64,000 nt of DNA, from contig JANSWZ010000006.1 of assembly GCA_024743215.1 (NCBI GenBank), positions 1-64,000 on the forward strand. The letters run 5' to 3'. The notes under the pieces were generated by a model. That model made no database searches. It saw nothing but the letters and a program-made list of their open reading frames with translations, and was not told where the DNA came from. Both the position numbers and the translations under genes were made by a program. This document shows positions 26,670 through 34,003 of this stretch, piece after piece (position 1 is the stretch's first letter; every line of letters begins with the position of its first letter). Origin of the DNA: Alphaproteobacteria bacterium. GTDB taxonomy: Bacteria > Pseudomonadota > Alphaproteobacteria > Rhizobiales > GCA-2746425.

Positions 26670-27824
26670 CTAGTTTGATCCATCTTCCACAACCATTCCA
26701 TGCGGTTCAGCCAGATAATCCTTCGACTGCATTTCAATAAGACGCGATACTGTACGATCAAACGCGAATAATTCATTACCGGATTTTGCGCTGTAAAGCC
26801 GGTCTGGCGCATCAGCAGCCGAGGCAATCAGCTTCACCCGGTAATTATACAGTGCATCAATCAGATTAATGAACCGCCGTGCCGCATTCGCTGAGCTCTG
26901 TGTGAGCAGCGGAATCTCTTCAAGAATGACACTGTGGTACAGTTGTGCGATGGCAAGATAGTCGGCCGCACCTAACGGCCTGTTGCACAATTCATCAAAC
27001 GAAGCGCGTGCGACCCCCTGGGCAGCCTGGGGAATGACAATCTTGCGCCCCTTCATCTCAATCTCGGCTGCAACTCCCGGCTCATCCTTGCCGGTCAGAT
27101 CCAGCCATGCCTGATCCAGACCATCCTGTGCCGCTTGGCCAAGCGGCGAAAAATATGTCGTGCTCTGGCTCAGTTTCTCCAGTCGGAAATCCGTTCGGGC
27201 GGTCAATTCAACCACATTCACCCGGCTTTTCAACAGCGCAATGAATGGTAGAAACAATTGTCGATTGAGACCATTGGGATAGAGCTCATCTGGATCCACA
27301 TTTGAAGTGGCAACCAGTGTCACGCCATTTTCGAAGAAACGTTCAAACAGCCGTCCCAGAATCATCGCATCAGCAATGTCGACAACGTAAAACTCATCAA
27401 AACAAAGAAGTTTCATATTTTCCGACAGGGCGTCGGCCACAGGGGGAATTGGGTCCCCATCCTTCATCTTGCCATTCTTGATCAGTGCCCGTTGCGCATG
27501 AATACGTTCATGAACGTCGGCCATAAAGGCATGGAAATGAAATCGCTTCTTCTGCCGGATCGGGGATTCTTCAAAAAACAGATCCATCAGCATGGTCTTG
27601 CCACGCCCAACGCCACCCCAAATGTAAAGTCCCTTGGGAGCGGTTTTTGGACCGGATTTGGCAAACAGCCAGCCAAGCGAGCTCTTCTTGGACGCAAGCT
27701 CGTATTGTTTCAGCGCTTCTGTGAGCTCGGAAAATTTTTCAATCAGGGCAATTTGTGCGGGATCACGCTCAATTATGCCACCTTCAACAAGGCGTTGATA
27801 GCGCGTCTGCATGGCTTGCGGCAT
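26670..27824 (-). CDS. zapE: Cell division ATPase ZapE (AFG1 family)
   Basis: AFG1-like AAA protein of 384 aa. In bacteria ZapE associates with the Z-ring and destabilises FtsZ polymers; mitochondrial relatives act in respiratory-complex quality control. Walker A is GLYIWGGVGRGKTMLMDLFF at about residues 67-86, Walker B LLCFDEFYVVD, and the sensor region VATSNVDPDELYPNGLNR. An ATG four codons further in (27812) is an alternative start. Its place just upstream of mdh is common in Rhizobiales-type genomes. Confidence 0.95.
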   Translation of the reverse strand: MPQAMQTRYQRLVEGGIIERDPAQIALIEKFSELTEALKQYELASKKSSLGWLFAKSGPKTAPKGLYIWGGVGRGKTMLMDLFFEESPIRQKKRFHFHAFMADVHERIHAQRALIKNGKMKDGDPIPPVADALSENMKLLCFDEFYVVDIADAMILGRLFERFFENGVTLVATSNVDPDELYPNGLNRQLFLPFIALLKSRVNVVELTARTDFRLEKLSQSTTYFSPLGQAAQDGLDQAWLDLTGKDEPGVAAEIEMKGRKIVIPQAAQGVARASFDELCNRPLGAADYLAIAQLYHSVILEEIPLLTQSSANAARRFINLIDALYNYRVKLIASAADAPDRLYSAKSGNELFAFDRTVSRLIEMQSKDYLAEPHGMVVEDGSN

Positions 27825-27850
27825 GGAGCAACCAGAAACTGGTGAGAACC

Positions 27851-28483
27851 TTAGCGACTAACGGAAACGGGTGCGCCGCTTTTTGTTTGTCCGGAGAAAC
27901 GATTGCCACCGGCTGGCGACAGAGTTGCAACCTGCGACCCAGTGGCCCCGACAAGAACCACCTGGTTGTTCTGCAAATCCCACGCCGTAACATTGGCAAG
28001 TTCCACAGAGTTGCAGCCCTTCGTCGTGGCACGATACCCACCCGTCCAGGTGGTGAGTGTCATGAACAGCTGACACGTATCCGCTGTCGATGCCAACTGC
28101 CAGGCACCAAGCATATCAGCGCGGCTCAGTTGAACGGCAGAGACTGTTGGTTGAATAGGCTGTGGCGCAGCGGCAGCAGGCGCCTGCGTGATCTGCGTAT
28201 TGGCCGGTGGTGTTGTCACCCGTGGCGGTGCTGCATTGGCAGCGGCGGCTGGATCAAACGGCTGAGCACCAACGGGCTGACCCTGTTGTGTCAAAGCGGG
28301 CGCTGGCGCATTGGGATCAAAGGGTTGTCCGGCCTGCGTACCATCAGCTGAAGGAAGCGGCGGAAGATCACCAGACTGAACCGGGGCTGTCGGTGAACCG
28401 GAGAACGGATTTGGCAAACGCGTTTGACACGCACCAAGCAGAAATGAAGTTGCCAGAAGGGCGATGGCGCTTCGTGTAGCCAC
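27851..28483 (-). CDS. Omp19-like lipoprotein with protease-inhibitor (Inh/AprI) domain
   Basis: Predicted outer-membrane lipoprotein of 210 aa. The start is a GTG at 28483 with a strong GGAGG seven bases before it, giving a normal lipoprotein signal (VATRSAIALLATSFLLGAC, lipidated Cys at residue 19). A longer frame to 28609 would bury the signal behind about 40 residues. A Pro/Ala/Gln linker follows, then a C-terminal beta-barrel domain (about 120-210) of the Inh/Omp19 type, with MLGAWQL, TADTCQLFMTLT and ATTKGCN; the two cysteines of that domain could form its usual disulfide. Brucella Omp19 inhibits host proteases; whether this protein does is unknown. Confidence 0.85.
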   Translation of the reverse strand: MATRSAIALLATSFLLGACQTRLPNPFSGSPTAPVQSGDLPPLPSADGTQAGQPFDPNAPAPALTQQGQPVGAQPFDPAAAANAAPPRVTTPPANTQITQAPAAAAPQPIQPTVSAVQLSRADMLGAWQLASTADTCQLFMTLTTWTGGYRATTKGCNSVELANVTAWDLQNNQVVLVGATGSQVATLSPAGGNRFSGQTKSGAPVSVSR

Positions 28484-28951
28484 AGATGTGCCTCCGGTCC
28501 TTACGCGAACCTCAGTTCCGGCAATAGCGGTGGTAGCGCCATGACTGGCGAAAGCCGCTTGGATTTTCTGTCCGGACATTATAGTTCCCCTGTGACTCAA
28601 CTCATACAATTCGTCGACGCGTACGCCCTATGGTCCTTTTTTGACCAAATATACTGAATATTTTATTGACGCCACGGTTAAAAAAATCAATGGCGCAGTG
28701 AAATTACGGGCAAGATTTAGGTGTGGCACGTGTTGGAATTGTGGCACAGGCTCATTTCGAAGGCAGAACAGTCAACAATCCGGCCAGTCTGTTTCACCCT
28801 TGAAGACGCCTAACGATTGTCATAAATCTTTGCTACTTGGCGTAAACGTGACCTTTGGTATTATGTTCAGTCCTCGGACAGGCGTATCAGGTGGCGCCGG
28901 AGGGTGTTGAGGTTCAACCCGTCTGAACATTATTAATGACTGGGGGTCACC
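28484..28951. other. 468-bp divergent intergenic region
   Basis: Holds the promoters of the lipoprotein gene (minus) and the acyltransferase gene (plus). No gene is supported. The last part, between the candidate promoter at 28837-28864 and the acyltransferase ATG, forms a leader of about 80 bases with a GTTCA/TGAAC hairpin. Confidence 0.5.
28837..28864 (+). promoter_or_regulatory. Candidate sigma-70 promoter of the acyltransferase gene
   Basis: TTGGCG (28837-28842) and TATTAT (28859-28864) are separated by 16 bp and lie about 90 bp before the acyltransferase ATG. It is a reasonable but unproven match to the housekeeping consensus. Confidence 0.4.
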
Positions 28952-29872
28952 ATGGCTCTTTATGCACATACTGCCTTGAAGGACCGCGTGTCGGAAGCGC
29001 GTCAGGCCCGTTCGCGCGTAGCGGTCAAAAACCACGTTCACATTGTGGACAGGCTGATTGCCGAACGCGCAATCGGGCTGGCCTCCCATTGGTCTTGGCC
29101 GGTTATCCGTCCCATGCTTTACAAACTGCTGGGTTACAAACGTGCTGTCACCATGTCAGATATCGTGGCGGACATGTCGGGGCCAGATGCCATGTCATTC
29201 GTGTCGACCATGCTCAATCTGCAACTGGACATTTCCGGTCTCGACCGCATTCCAAGGGAAGGTCCCTTCCTTCTGGCGGCCAACCACCCGACCGGCATTG
29301 CCGACGGTGTTGCCGTATATGATTTGGTCAAAGCGGTCCGTCCCGACATTGCCATTTTCACCAATCGCGATGCCGTGCGTGTTGCCCGCCGGTTTGACGA
29401 AGTGCTGATCCCGGTTGAGTGGCGCGAGGAACATAAGAGCCGCGAAAAAACCAAGGAAACGCTGATCAGAACCGCTGAAGCCTTCGATGACGGCAAAGCT
29501 GTTGTGATCTTCCCTTCTGGCCGCATCGGTTATTGGGCCGATGAAAAACTGAATGAACGGACCTGGCAAGCGACACTTGTGACACTGGCCAAACGTTACA
29601 AAGTACCGATTGTGCCCGTCCATGTGCGCAGCCGCAATTCCGGCCTGTTCTACTTGTTCAGCCGCATCTCCAACGAATTGAGAGACATGACTGTCTTCTA
29701 CGAACTGCTCAATAAGTCAGGTACCGGGTTTGGTCTGAGCGTTGGCAAACCGATCTCTCATGAAAGTCTGATTGGTGATGCAAACGAGTTGACGGCAGAA
29801 CTGCAGACCCACACCGTGACGACACTGGCACAAGACAGGCACGCACTCTTCAAAAGCCGCGTGAACGCTTGA
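28952..29872 (+). CDS. PlsC-like lysophospholipid acyltransferase family protein
   Basis: Glycerolipid-type acyltransferase of 306 aa. The catalytic block is NHPTGIADGVAVYD, an H-x5-D variant found in the hemolysin-like and ornithine-lipid acyltransferase branch rather than the H-x4-D of classical PlsC, followed by FTNRDAVRVARRFDE and FPSGRIGYW, which replaces the usual EGTR block. It probably acylates a lysolipid or an aminolipid at the inner membrane; the acceptor cannot be read from the sequence. GGGGG lies five bases before the ATG. A decayed second copy of its 3' end is found at 30530-30631. Confidence 0.88.
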   Translation: MALYAHTALKDRVSEARQARSRVAVKNHVHIVDRLIAERAIGLASHWSWPVIRPMLYKLLGYKRAVTMSDIVADMSGPDAMSFVSTMLNLQLDISGLDRIPREGPFLLAANHPTGIADGVAVYDLVKAVRPDIAIFTNRDAVRVARRFDEVLIPVEWREEHKSREKTKETLIRTAEAFDDGKAVVIFPSGRIGYWADEKLNERTWQATLVTLAKRYKVPIVPVHVRSRNSGLFYLFSRISNELRDMTVFYELLNKSGTGFGLSVGKPISHESLIGDANELTAELQTHTVTTLAQDRHALFKSRVNA

Positions 29873-29876
29873 CTCC

Positions 29877-29890
29877 GGGGTTTGAACCCC
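29877..29890. repeat. Palindrome GGGGTTTGAACCCC after the acyltransferase gene
   Basis: Perfect 14-bp palindrome four bases past the acyltransferase stop. Its 12-bp core recurs at 31928-31939, after the sulfotransferase gene, so the pair flanks the kinase-sulfotransferase segment. It resembles a tRNA T-arm superficially, but no tRNA surrounds it. Confidence 0.7.
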
Positions 29891-29954
29891 TGTTGTAAAA
29901 AATTGGACAATAACGCCGGATTTGCAGGATCAAATCAGTTGGAGCAATAAACCG

Positions 29955-30551
29955 ATGGCTGCCAAACTGCGGAACCTGTGTTTGTTGGGAACATCGCATG
30001 TTGGCAAATCGACTTGTGCACGCGCATTGGGCTCTACAGCCGGAATGGCCGTGATATCCACTGACAAGTTAGGGCGTCATCCGGGCCGGCCATGGACTGA
30101 TGTGCCGAAGGAAGTCGAAGAGTTTTATCAACACCTCAGCGACGATACCATTCACTGGTTTTTGCGCGTCCACCACGAGAATATGCGCCCCGTTATTCAG
30201 AATTGCGTAGCAGACATGCGCCAGGCAAACAGCGCCTTTGTACTGGAAGGGTCTGCATTGAGGCCCGAATATCTGTCATTCTGGGACATCAGCGATGCAC
30301 TATCAATTTGTCTTTATGCAGATAACGAATTTCTAAGACGGAGAATCGAAGCTGAAAGCGACCATGCCGCACAAGGTAAACCAATGAAAATCGCCATCGA
30401 CAGGTTCATTGAACGCTCTCTTCGCGAAAACGATGCGCTCGTCGAGGCCGCGAACAGACATGGTGTGCCCCTGTTCGATGTTACCCACGTAACGAGCGCG
30501 AAAAGCCTCATCGAAAAATTGAGCGCCCAATTGAAATCGCGACCGAGTTGA
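29955..30551 (+). CDS. Small P-loop kinase-like protein, function unknown
   Basis: Protein of 198 aa with an N-terminal Walker A (LCLLGTSHVGKSTCARALG) and the layout of small nucleoside/phosphometabolite kinases: a DKLGRHPGRPW segment after strand 2, a lid region rich in Arg (EFLRRRIEAE), and a C-terminal SLRENDALVEAANRHGVPLF typical of kinase-like P-loop proteins. The substrate cannot be assigned. The ATG at 29955 is preferred over a TTG at 29922; GGAG lies 11 bases before it. The final codons (AQLKSRPS and stop) overlap, in another frame, a decayed copy of the acyltransferase C-terminus. The sulfotransferase-like gene follows after 250 bp. Confidence 0.8.
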   Translation: MAAKLRNLCLLGTSHVGKSTCARALGSTAGMAVISTDKLGRHPGRPWTDVPKEVEEFYQHLSDDTIHWFLRVHHENMRPVIQNCVADMRQANSAFVLEGSALRPEYLSFWDISDALSICLYADNEFLRRRIEAESDHAAQGKPMKIAIDRFIERSLRENDALVEAANRHGVPLFDVTHVTSAKSLIEKLSAQLKSRPS

Positions 30552-30631
30552 CGCCAGAAAAGCAGACCCAGACTGTGGCCACTCCGGCACAGGAAAGGAA
30601 CACCCCGTTCAAAGGCAACGTGGAAACCTGA
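30530..30631 (+). pseudogene. Remnant of a second acyltransferase 3' end, overprinted by the kinase C-terminus
   Basis: Starting at 30530 a reading frame encodes IEIATELTPEKQTQTVAT and onwards to a TGA at 30629-30631. It aligns without gaps to the last ~33 codons of the acyltransferase at 28952 (IGDANELTAELQTHTVTT and onwards), with the stop in the same place. Over the 93 bases from 29785 and 30544 I count 69 identities. The frame differs from the kinase frame, so the last kinase codons and its stop lie inside the remnant. No other part of a second acyltransferase copy is recognisable. Confidence 0.75.
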
Positions 30632-30801
30632 TTCCGAAGGTCGAATGATTTCATCCCCTTCAGTTCAAAGCCGCCGTAGCAAATCTCCCACGCTTGCGGG
30701 CAAGGCTCACTTGTTTAATATTGGGCCACGAAAGCACTGAGCTTACGGTCGTCGAGGCGCATGGCCGCTCTCGCCCCGCGGCACCCAATGGAGATTTCAC
30801 A

Positions 30802-31917
30802 TTGAAAGCCGACTTGTTTCTGATCAACGGGCAAAACAAAGACAACGCCTTTCAAGCGTCTGGCCTCGATGATTTCAAGCTAAGTCCAAAAGGGCAGATA
30901 GAGATCGACACGCTTGTTGCCTCGCCGGATTGGACCCTCTATTCGGTCGATCCTGCAAAGGGCATGGCAATGCTCATAGAAATGCCCGCAGGAACCGATT
31001 TATCCAATTCCGTCTTTGTGTACCAGGACCAGTTTGATCTGGGATTGCGCGCTGCAATCCTTGAACTCGATGCCTTCATTGAAGCCAGTCAGGCGATTGC
31101 GCCACCAAGTCATCTGTCGTTTTTGTTCTCAACGGGGCGCTGTGGTTCAACATTGGCCAGCCGCATCTTTGCAAAATTACCCGATGTCTGGAGCCTGTCA
31201 GAGCCCGATTATCTGACCAATATAGCCATGGCACGGCTGACAAATCCGCGCGCCGAGCTTGTGGCGTTGATCCGGGCAACCACGCTCTGGACATGTCGCG
31301 CACCCAAAGGCCAGGCACCAACAGCCATCATTCTAAAACCACGCAGCGAGGCGACCCTGATCGCCGAACTGTGTCAGGAAGCATTTCCGAACTCGCAGAA
31401 TGTATTCCTGTATCGAGACTTGCTCGGCTGGGCAAATTCCATAGGCAAGCTCTCACAGCGGGCCATGGACCCGGCGATTGTATATGCCGAAAGCGAGTTT
31501 TGGCGTGACTGGTGGGATCATGTCATGGCGGGTCAGCCACTAACGACATTGGAAGACTATTTCCCGCCAGATCACGGACCGATTCTGGCGTCAGAATTCT
31601 TCACTTTGGCATGGGACCTGCGCATAGAAGGCTATCTCAATGCACTGCGGCGGGGCATGAATTTTACCGCCATTCACTATGCAGACCTCAATAAAAACCG
31701 GGAGCACGAGGCGGCGCGGCTTCTCAGCGGCTGCGGATTGCCCACCGACTATCTGAATATGGCAATGGAAGCATTTGACGTGGACAGCCACAGAGGAAGC
31801 GTCAGCGGAAATGCAACACCCGCCATGCCGATGCCAAAGAACCAACAGGCGCGAGCCACAGCCTTGTTGGCCCGAATGGGAAAGCGCGACTATGTAGAAG
31901 CAAGACTGCCAGATTAG
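30802..31917 (+). CDS. Sulfotransferase-like P-loop protein
   Basis: Protein of about 371 aa. The central FLFSTGRCGSTLASRIFAKL (near residue 110) is the 5'-phosphosulfate-binding loop of PAPS-dependent sulfotransferases, and FLYRDLLGWANSIGKLSQR further on matches the 3'-phosphate-binding block (R-D-...-S). The N-terminal ~95 residues form an extra domain of unknown type. The start is uncertain: TTG at 30802 has GGAG eight bases before it and begins a plausible strand (KADLFLING); TTG at 30694 would add 36 residues. The acceptor is unknown. No PAPS synthesis genes are nearby. GC content appears lower than in the flanking TCA genes. Confidence 0.75.
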   Translation: MKADLFLINGQNKDNAFQASGLDDFKLSPKGQIEIDTLVASPDWTLYSVDPAKGMAMLIEMPAGTDLSNSVFVYQDQFDLGLRAAILELDAFIEASQAIAPPSHLSFLFSTGRCGSTLASRIFAKLPDVWSLSEPDYLTNIAMARLTNPRAELVALIRATTLWTCRAPKGQAPTAIILKPRSEATLIAELCQEAFPNSQNVFLYRDLLGWANSIGKLSQRAMDPAIVYAESEFWRDWWDHVMAGQPLTTLEDYFPPDHGPILASEFFTLAWDLRIEGYLNALRRGMNFTAIHYADLNKNREHEAARLLSGCGLPTDYLNMAMEAFDVDSHRGSVSGNATPAMPMPKNQQARATALLARMGKRDYVEARLPD

Positions 31918-31927
31918 GTTAAGATCA

Positions 31928-31939
31928 GGGTTTGAACCC
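31928..31939. repeat. Palindrome GGGTTTGAACCC after the sulfotransferase gene
   Basis: Perfect 12-bp palindrome identical to the core of the one at 29877-29890, here 10 bases past the sulfotransferase stop codon. The two could be duplicated 3'-end hairpins or boundary marks of an inserted segment. Confidence 0.65.
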
Positions 31940-32054
31940 AATTGGGCGATCGCATTATGACAGAACAACACTGAAAACTGTTCGGCCATGCCATATTGTG
32001 CCGATAACAATTGTTGCTGGCGCAAAACAACTGAACAGGAGACGTAACGCAGAC

Positions 32055-32795
32055 ATGTATGATCCAAAAGGAAACGGCAAAGACAAAACAGTACAATCAG
32101 TGCAGTTTGCCAAGGCAGAACCACCCGATCATTTGCGTGGGATCGTACATCGATTTTTGGAACTCAAGACTAATGGCACGCTGTCGGATGATTATAGATT
32201 CCATGCATTGCCGGATGCATGCGCCTACATCGTCTTTGACCAATTGAACCCAAAAATCACAGGGGTTTCCAAATTGCGCGCTGCGTCTGAAGAGCTCAAT
32301 TTGGGCAAGGCATTTCACTATGTGAACATTCGTTTTTTGCCTGGTGTCTGGCAAGGTGACCGTGAAGAGGTTGCTTACGGCATGGTGGACACGACGTATT
32401 CGGGCGGCCTGCCTCTGAACGAAATCAATCGTCAGCTTTCCAAACGAACCTTTATCGATCAACAGCTGGTGTTGTCAGAATTCGTAGAAAGACTGATTGA
32501 GAGCAAGCAGGTCGTAGCGAACCCTGTCACAGAAAAGATATTTCAAAACCTCGACGGGATTCATACGGTTTCAGACATGGCGGCTGTTTCAGAACTGTCG
32601 ACACGCCAGCTTCAACGAACGCTCAAACGAACCACCGGGTTTGCTCCACATGACTTTCTCAAAGTGCTGCGCCTCCAACAAACTCTGAACGGCAATGATG
32701 CATCTTCTTACGCCGACCAGTCGCATTTCATACATTCGTTTCGCAAAGCCACTGGCTACACACCGGGTAAGTATTCTCGAAAGTTTGATGTCTGA
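32055..32795 (+). CDS. AraC-family transcriptional regulator
   Basis: Protein of 246 aa with an N-terminal effector or dimerisation domain (FHALPDACAYIVFDQLNPK) and a C-terminal double helix-turn-helix of AraC type (VSDMAAVSELSTRQLQRTLK, then FAPHDFLKVLRLQQTL, and the signature YADQSHFIHSFRKATGYTPG at about residues 218-237). The ATG at 32055, preceded by AGGAG, begins MYDPKGNGK; an upstream in-frame ATG at 31932 overlaps likely leader sequence. Likely targets are the VOC gene 69 bp downstream or the sulfotransferase gene upstream, but nothing in the sequence proves either. Confidence 0.9.
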   Translation: MYDPKGNGKDKTVQSVQFAKAEPPDHLRGIVHRFLELKTNGTLSDDYRFHALPDACAYIVFDQLNPKITGVSKLRAASEELNLGKAFHYVNIRFLPGVWQGDREEVAYGMVDTTYSGGLPLNEINRQLSKRTFIDQQLVLSEFVERLIESKQVVANPVTEKIFQNLDGIHTVSDMAAVSELSTRQLQRTLKRTTGFAPHDFLKVLRLQQTLNGNDASSYADQSHFIHSFRKATGYTPGKYSRKFDV

Positions 32796-32864
32796 TATCT
32801 ACAATACACACCAAATCCAACTTGCTATCTGATTGTCATAATCGAAAACAAACAGGAGTTGGAT

Positions 32865-33245
32865 ATGACAAAAATGAACGCAGTTGGATGGTTCGACATC
32901 TATGTAAGCGACCTGAATCGGGCAGTTTCCTTTTATGAAACTGTATTGGGGCACAAACTGGAAGAAATGACCGATCCAACAGGTCAATCACAAATGATGA
33001 GTTTTCCTGCTGACATGACTTCATACGGGGCAGCCGGCGCGTTGACAAAATCAGACCATGCGTCCCCCGGAGTAGGCGGCACTGTCGTGTATTTTTCTGC
33101 AGAAGACTGTGCGGTGGAAGAATCACGCGTTGCTGCGGCTGGCGGCAAAGTCATCAGACCAAAATTCTCAATCGGAGAGTTTGGCTGGGTCACACTGTGT
33201 CAGGATACCGAAGGCAACATGTTTGGTCTCAACTCCCTGAAATAG
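32865..33245 (+). CDS. VOC family (glyoxalase-fold) protein
   Basis: Protein of 126 aa with two beta-alpha-beta-beta-beta modules: GWFDIYVSDLNRAVSFYETV at the start and GGTVVYFSAEDCAVEESRVA in the second half, ending DTEGNMFGLNS. The histidine that opens the metal site in true glyoxalases is replaced (WFDI), as in the PhnB-like/CGA-type branch, so catalysis is doubtful. AGGAG stands six bases before the ATG. It follows the AraC gene and could be its target. Confidence 0.88.
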   Translation: MTKMNAVGWFDIYVSDLNRAVSFYETVLGHKLEEMTDPTGQSQMMSFPADMTSYGAAGALTKSDHASPGVGGTVVYFSAEDCAVEESRVAAAGGKVIRPKFSIGEFGWVTLCQDTEGNMFGLNSLK

Positions 33246-33273
33246 AATTCCAATAATTTGAGATGATTTTACA

Positions 33274-33392
33274 GCGCCAGGTCTGGCGCAGGTAGCAATT
33301 GCGCGGGCATGTCGAAAGACGGCCCGTGCTACGCCCGCAATCCCTTCAAGACCGGTTTGGAGCAGATGTGCATTTGCGAATGCAGCGGTCTT
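33274..33392 (+). ncRNA. Candidate structured RNA element (three hairpins)
   Basis: The gap between the VOC gene and the convergent membrane gene holds three successive hairpins. First, GCGCCA-GGTC-TGGCGC (33274-33289). Second, an ATTGC/GCAAT and CGGGC/GCCCG stem (33298-33341) capped by GTC-GAAA-GAC, a GNRA tetraloop. Third, AAGACCG/CGGTCTT (33348-33354 with 33386-33392) enclosing TGCATT-TGCG-AATGCA, a UNCG-type tetraloop. Both loop types appear only when read on the plus strand. It could be an elaborate 3' end of the VOC mRNA, an intergenic repeat, or an independent RNA. Confidence 0.4.
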
Positions 33393-34003
33393 TAAACAAT
33401 GTCCCAGAACACATAGCCAAACCAGGCGTAGAACAACACCCAGATGAACAGCGTCAACCGCATCAGGCCGACGCGGCGAAGCCGGGCATACAGAAAACTG
33501 CGCAACAGTCCTGACAGGGCCAACACCACAACAATTCTTGAAAAGCGGGCAATGGTTGCCGGTTCCAGAAACGCCAGCAATGGCGCAATGCCGGCTTCAA
33601 AGGCTGTTGCGGAAAAAATCTTGAACGGCACGCCGGTGAAGCCACCAAACAACAGCGCACCCATCGGCTCCGCGGCCATATCAGTGGACGCATAGCGCAA
33701 CAATTCCTCGGTGATACCGGGAACTGTCAGGATGAAGGACCGGACAAATTCCGGGTTCACCTGCGATAATTTATAAAGAACAATGCCGCCCAGCATTGTG
33801 CCAATCAAGGCAGCAAAGGCAGGGACCATGGCCTTCAGCACGCCGAAGCGCATAACAGCAAGGCTGATCAGCACATCCACCATGATGAAAAACCACAGGG
33901 CTTCCGCAAATCCCCAGATGAAGCCCACGAGTGACCACACCAGCAGCCAACTCCAGGTCAGGGCATTTCTGGGAGACATGGGACCGAGCAGCAGCCCAAC
34001 CAT
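33392..34003 (-). CDS. Multi-pass inner-membrane protein, possibly VTT/DedA-like
   Basis: Hydrophobic protein of 203 aa with five or more membrane segments (for example LLVWSLVGFIWGFAEALWFF and YAWFGYVFWDI). The segment GGFTGVPFKIFSATAFEAGI, with its FKI and small-residue pattern, recalls the re-entrant loop of VTT/DedA or YqaA-like proteins, but I am not sure of the family. It starts 15 bp after the sdhB stop on the same strand, so it is probably cotranscribed with the succinate dehydrogenase genes. Confidence 0.75.
   Translation of the reverse strand: MVGLLLGPMSPRNALTWSWLLVWSLVGFIWGFAEALWFFIMVDVLISLAVMRFGVLKAMVPAFAALIGTMLGGIVLYKLSQVNPEFVRSFILTVPGITEELLRYASTDMAAEPMGALLFGGFTGVPFKIFSATAFEAGIAPLLAFLEPATIARFSRIVVVLALSGLLRSFLYARLRRVGLMRLTLFIWVLFYAWFGYVFWDIV

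Follow-up and report, generated by a model that had tools for sequence, protein, structure and literature searches.

Truncated gene scraps occur at points of insertion. Foreign DNA can be brought in by homology at one end together with non-homologous joining at the other, or by single-crossover integration, as set out in PMC3240628. Partial duplications (merodiploids) arise in natural transformation and, as described in PMC3784515, are tandem and about 100–900 kb in length. Here we describe a locus in the window (the whole stretch of 64,000 nucleotides that was analysed) that bears an ordinary scar, left by a gain of DNA with partial duplication, and represents no new kind of system. We consider it likely, with a probability of roughly 0.7, that a kinase-bearing segment was gained at the 3′ end of an acyltransferase gene and left a direct repeat of that end. 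The gene order is acyltransferase, kinase, remnant of the acyltransferase end, sulfotransferase-like open reading frame (ORF), AraC-type regulator and glyoxalase-like gene; the features that matter for the argument are as follows.

28952–29872, + strand: intact gene for a PlsC-like acyltransferase of 306 amino acids, from which the repeat derives (PF01553 and PF19576 of Pfam exceed their cut-offs)
29785–29886, + strand: acyltransferase 3′ end and a few bases past the stop, the functional copy of the repeat (69/93 identities to 30544–30636)
29887–30543, + strand: extra unique segment with the kinase, left edge rough (no counterpart at the G002 locus)
29955–30551, + strand: P-loop (AAA_18) kinase-like gene, 198 amino acids, full length (PF13238, E = 5.8e-8)
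30544–30636, + strand: decayed duplicate of the acyltransferase end, stop position 30629–30631 (repeat alignment; similarity to G002 continues to 30645)
30650–30692, + strand: intergenic DNA, found in G002 downstream of its only acyltransferase gene (86% over 43 bases)
30694–31917, + strand: sulfotransferase-like ORF (PF13469 at 26.5 bits, slightly below the cut-off of 27)

The gap-free alignment of positions 29785–29877 with 30544–30636 has 69 identities in its 93 columns, exactly the count given in the original prediction, whereas the next-best 93-base match to the acyltransferase end anywhere in the window has 41 identities (plus strand) or 42 (minus strand). Local alignment of the acyltransferase end with 29900–30899 gives a score of 66, whereas none of 500 first-order Markov resamplings of that interval exceeds 27; the homology therefore goes beyond chance, and the score is better than that of shuffled sequence. 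Independently of this alignment, a repeat finder recovered two copies of 107 nt at 29780 and 30539, 72% identical and spaced by 759, and the gap-free identity ends at about 30539. The frame and the position of the stop are common to both copies (ELTPEKQTQTVATPAQERNTPFKGNVET versus ELTAELQTHTVTTLAQDRHALFKSRVNA, each followed by the stop), as had been noted. These comparisons support the proposal that 30544–30636 arose by duplication of the acyltransferase 3′ end and has since decayed; it comprises only the last ~29 codons of the gene and, on the substitution pattern described below, is without coding constraint. A peptide search of the same genome at E values of up to 10 returned the remnant and the acyltransferase and nothing else. 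A DNA search of the genome with a 221-base region returned that region alone, overlooking even the known copy at 74%, and is uninformative about other diverged copies.

The acyltransferase, for which the top NCBIfam match is OlsF (142 bits; cut-off, 620), has one match in each of three of the four other genomes of the genus, with protein identities of 95% (G002), 89% (G001) and 79% (G003), and none in the fourth (G004). The kinase has no match in any of the four. The genus, which belongs to the Hyphomicrobiales, includes the named strain IMCC20636.

Genome G002, the closest of these four relatives, carries the uninterrupted site. Its single acyltransferase gene is directly followed by the sulfotransferase-like gene, and neither a kinase nor a repeated acyltransferase end is present. 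Similarity to G002 at the DNA level runs through the acyltransferase gene (83.5% over 103 bases across the functional repeat copy, reaching beyond the stop), fades between 29882 and 29894, which makes the left edge of the unique segment approximate, and is found again in the remnant, at 74.5% over 102 bases. The DNA downstream is collinear, at 86% over 30650–30692 and 87% from 30774. The window thus holds ~759 bases more than G002, corresponding to the kinase gene and one copy of the acyltransferase end or, apart from small indels, to one repeat unit plus about 650 unique bases. A relative therefore exists with an uninterrupted site that matches both flanks; that the difference is a gain rather than a loss is our inference. 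The DNA queries matched each genome’s own acyltransferase end once in G002 and once in G001 and missed that in G003, so that a remnant of such age in G003 would also escape them. The sulfotransferase-like protein is 85% identical to that of G002 over residues 20–407; about 80 bases at the start of its ORF (30693–30773) have no G002 counterpart, and the true start of the gene is uncertain.

These comparisons bear on the first of two histories offered in the original prediction, in which the whole acyltransferase gene was duplicated in tandem and the kinase then replaced most of the second copy. The retained frame and stop would fit such a history. However, the identity stops at about 30539 with no other trace of a second gene seen, G001, G002 and G003 have one acyltransferase match each, and a kept frame has a probability of 0.45 under drift. 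A complete second acyltransferase is also unnecessary and its replacement would require more steps, and we regard this history as improbable.

The remnant has changed about twice as much as either functional copy. Among 88 aligned bases, the remnant alone departs from the other two sequences at 15 sites, the window gene alone at 8 and G002 alone at 7, and no site shows three states; the excess of 15 over 8 is not significant on its own (chi-square of about 2.1). The remnant matches the window gene at 65 and G002 at 66 of the 88 bases. Its own changes are spread 6/3/6 over codon positions 1, 2 and 3 and alter 10 residues (neutral mean, 9.7), compared with 4 and 2 residues altered on the functional branches. 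In neutral simulations with 15 substitutions, an open frame and the kept stop survived in 45% of cases, an upper value because the simulations were without indels. A kept frame and stop with such a chance under neutrality give no evidence of recent coding, and the suggestion that the remnant was coding until fairly recently finds no footing in the 6/3/6 pattern, in the number of altered residues or in the frame itself. The remnant is best read as having been non-coding since soon after its origin. The general lesson is that a frame still open over 28 codons despite ~15 substitutions says nothing for recent coding.

A present function of the remnant, as a short coding or regulatory element, is the least credible of the readings that we weighed. 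Its open frame with the kept stop contains an in-frame TTG (30548) and GTG (30575), which would formally allow a product no longer than 27 residues; however, no in-frame ATG, GTG, TTG or CTG lies ahead of the repeat as far back as the stop at 30410, and the changes are neutral-like. There is also no Rfam match at the gathering score in 28500–34000 and no terminator-like site in 29700–30850.

The age of the remnant appears to be close to that of the separation of the window and G002 lineages. On the 88 sites, tree tests do not distinguish between three positions of the remnant near the point where the window and G002 part. A tree that joins it to G001 or G003 loses 4.5 log units, yet most tests do not reject this grouping (five topologies and 1,000 resamplings, too few for the AU test according to the program). 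The quartet site patterns number 4, 3 and 2, and a bootstrap tree places the remnant towards G001 and G003 with a support of 50. Taken as a whole, the divergence of the remnant looks like a near-star around the window/G002 split.

Such a date leaves room for a different direction of change, in which the kinase and the repeat were ancestral to the window and G002 and were lost together in G002 by recombination between the repeat copies. Direct repeats favour deletion of this kind, and the remnant diverged at about the time at which the two lineages split. Set against this is that the kinase has no match in G001, G003 or G004 either, so that a gain is required in any case and the loss becomes an additional step. 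We therefore consider this history unlikely, and it is in part compatible with the preferred reading, given that it still requires an older gain. The sporadic distribution of the kinase in the order, with a strong match in 17 of 397 genomes (its own included), supports a gain.

On gene order, the gap between the acyltransferase gene and the gene at 33392–34003 is a variable site in the genus, which also speaks for a gain. The two genes are about 45 bases apart in G003, whereas in G001 the gap holds a cluster of ABC transporter, HlyD and TetR genes. In G002 it holds three genes (the sulfotransferase, AraC and glyoxalase region, by DNA alignment), and in the window four, which are the G002 set and the kinase, plus the remnant. 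Variability of this kind could arise if the acyltransferase 3′ end were the att site of a site-specific integrating element and the two copies its worn att repeats; the ends of integrating elements often sit in gene 3′ ends. However, a Pfam scan found no integrase among the eight window genes in 26670–34003, and the kinase is the sole gene between the repeats. A downstream copy of the gene’s own 3′ end was found in none of 79 acyltransferase loci searched over up to 8 kb, with the window as the positive control; these loci are the best 80 of 171 minus one that was too short and, as only that of G001 is known to come from the genus, the lack of recurrent 3′-end repeats concerns loci that are nearly all from outside it. 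An att site is accordingly a doubtful explanation, somewhat more so than the duplication of a whole gene.

More doubtful still is the idea that the acyltransferase 3′ end serves as a repeated gene-capture point in the genus, with each capture leaving a copy of the end. If the idea were true, incoming DNA would recombine with a conserved gene, and the scrap might supply captured genes with their final codons and stop.

P-loop proteins of ~200 residues that conserve the motif STDxxxRHPGRPW form a sporadic family, of which the kinase is a member. Of 397 genomes from the order, 24 have a homologue (17 with strong matches and 7 with weak partial matches only), as do 5 of 385 genomes from the class (2 of them weak), with the kinase’s own genome included in both counts. 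The closest homologue is 59% identical, with a length of 199 amino acids by mechanical choice of the start. No NCBIfam model scores above its cut-off, and searches against solved structures (by sequence, at E = 0.01) and phage records returned no match; plasmid records gave eight matches, every one at less than 60% identity. The GC3 of the kinase, 0.545, gives no compositional sign of foreign origin: an uncurated reference of 40 long ORFs, collected by pattern on either strand of the window, averages 0.571 (s.d. 0.039). Among 10 neighbouring genes scanned around the kinase in four other genomes, 2 encode LysR-type regulators, 4 have no Pfam match and the rest are varied; the choice of neighbours was automatic, and some of those chosen lie on the wrong strand. 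The LysR-type genes are the gene before the kinase in G197 and one close by in G242, and a link between such regulators and the kinase family is possible.

Codon 197 of the kinase begins at 30543 and the stop occupies 30549–30551, so that the overlap with the remnant is 8 bases (30544–30551), made up of the last two bases of codon 197, all of codon 198 and the stop. Eighteen homologues were compared (16 stronger matches from the order search and 2 from the class search, leaving aside the own-genome match of each search, 15 weak matches from the order and 2 from the class). They are 191–206 amino acids long, with start codons chosen mechanically, and none has an acyltransferase within its ~3.5-kb locus. 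All 19 aligned sequences share GxS(H/N)xGKST and STDxxxRHPGRPW. A 198-residue kinase is of ordinary length for proteins that have no acyltransferase nearby, and no more than its final two codons and stop reach into the remnant. Thus, the window kinase is a complete and ordinary member of its family, and its natural end falls near the start of the remnant. The original prediction was right that the stop lies inside the remnant, in another frame; its description of the C terminus as overprinted does not hold, as the shared stretch is 8 bases and homologues reach similar lengths without it. Its second option, insertion of the kinase gene, agrees with the kinase being extra DNA that ends in the remnant and lacks a counterpart in the four other genomes of the genus. 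The stop may or may not have been borrowed from the remnant, as was further suggested, and two or three codons at most are at stake.

The gain that we favour would have taken place as follows. Kinase-bearing DNA would have been acquired just behind the acyltransferase gene, and the same event would have left a second copy of the last ~88 bases of the gene and of at least 5–14 bases past its stop. We infer that the route was recombination, which might have been a single crossover of a molecule that carried the kinase and homology to the acyltransferase end, or a joining that was homologous at one end and illegitimate at the other. Such an event yields in one step exactly the order observed: complete acyltransferase, kinase, 5′-truncated acyltransferase end and old downstream DNA. 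The truncated copy would have drifted since about the separation of the window and G002, with the kinase ending 8 bases inside it. A donor with the kinase beside an acyltransferase end was not present among the 18 kinase loci (~3.5 kb) and 79 acyltransferase loci, and with the closest kinase at 59% identity the junctions are not exactly readable.

The locus is a small and roughly dateable scar that indicates how a single accessory gene may settle where two conserved genes flank a variable spot. Both homology-facilitated illegitimate recombination and single-crossover integration may leave an incomplete copy of the target gene next to new DNA. The locus differs from these processes, as they appear in PMC3240628, in that the outcome alone is visible, the event is old and neither a donor nor a readable junction is at hand. 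Like the merodiploids described in PMC3784515, it would pair a partial duplication with DNA uptake, here of about 100 bases as opposed to about 100–900 kb. From the truncated scraps found at insertion points it does not differ notably: a 5′-truncated, decaying copy of a neighbouring gene that would lie beside acquired DNA.
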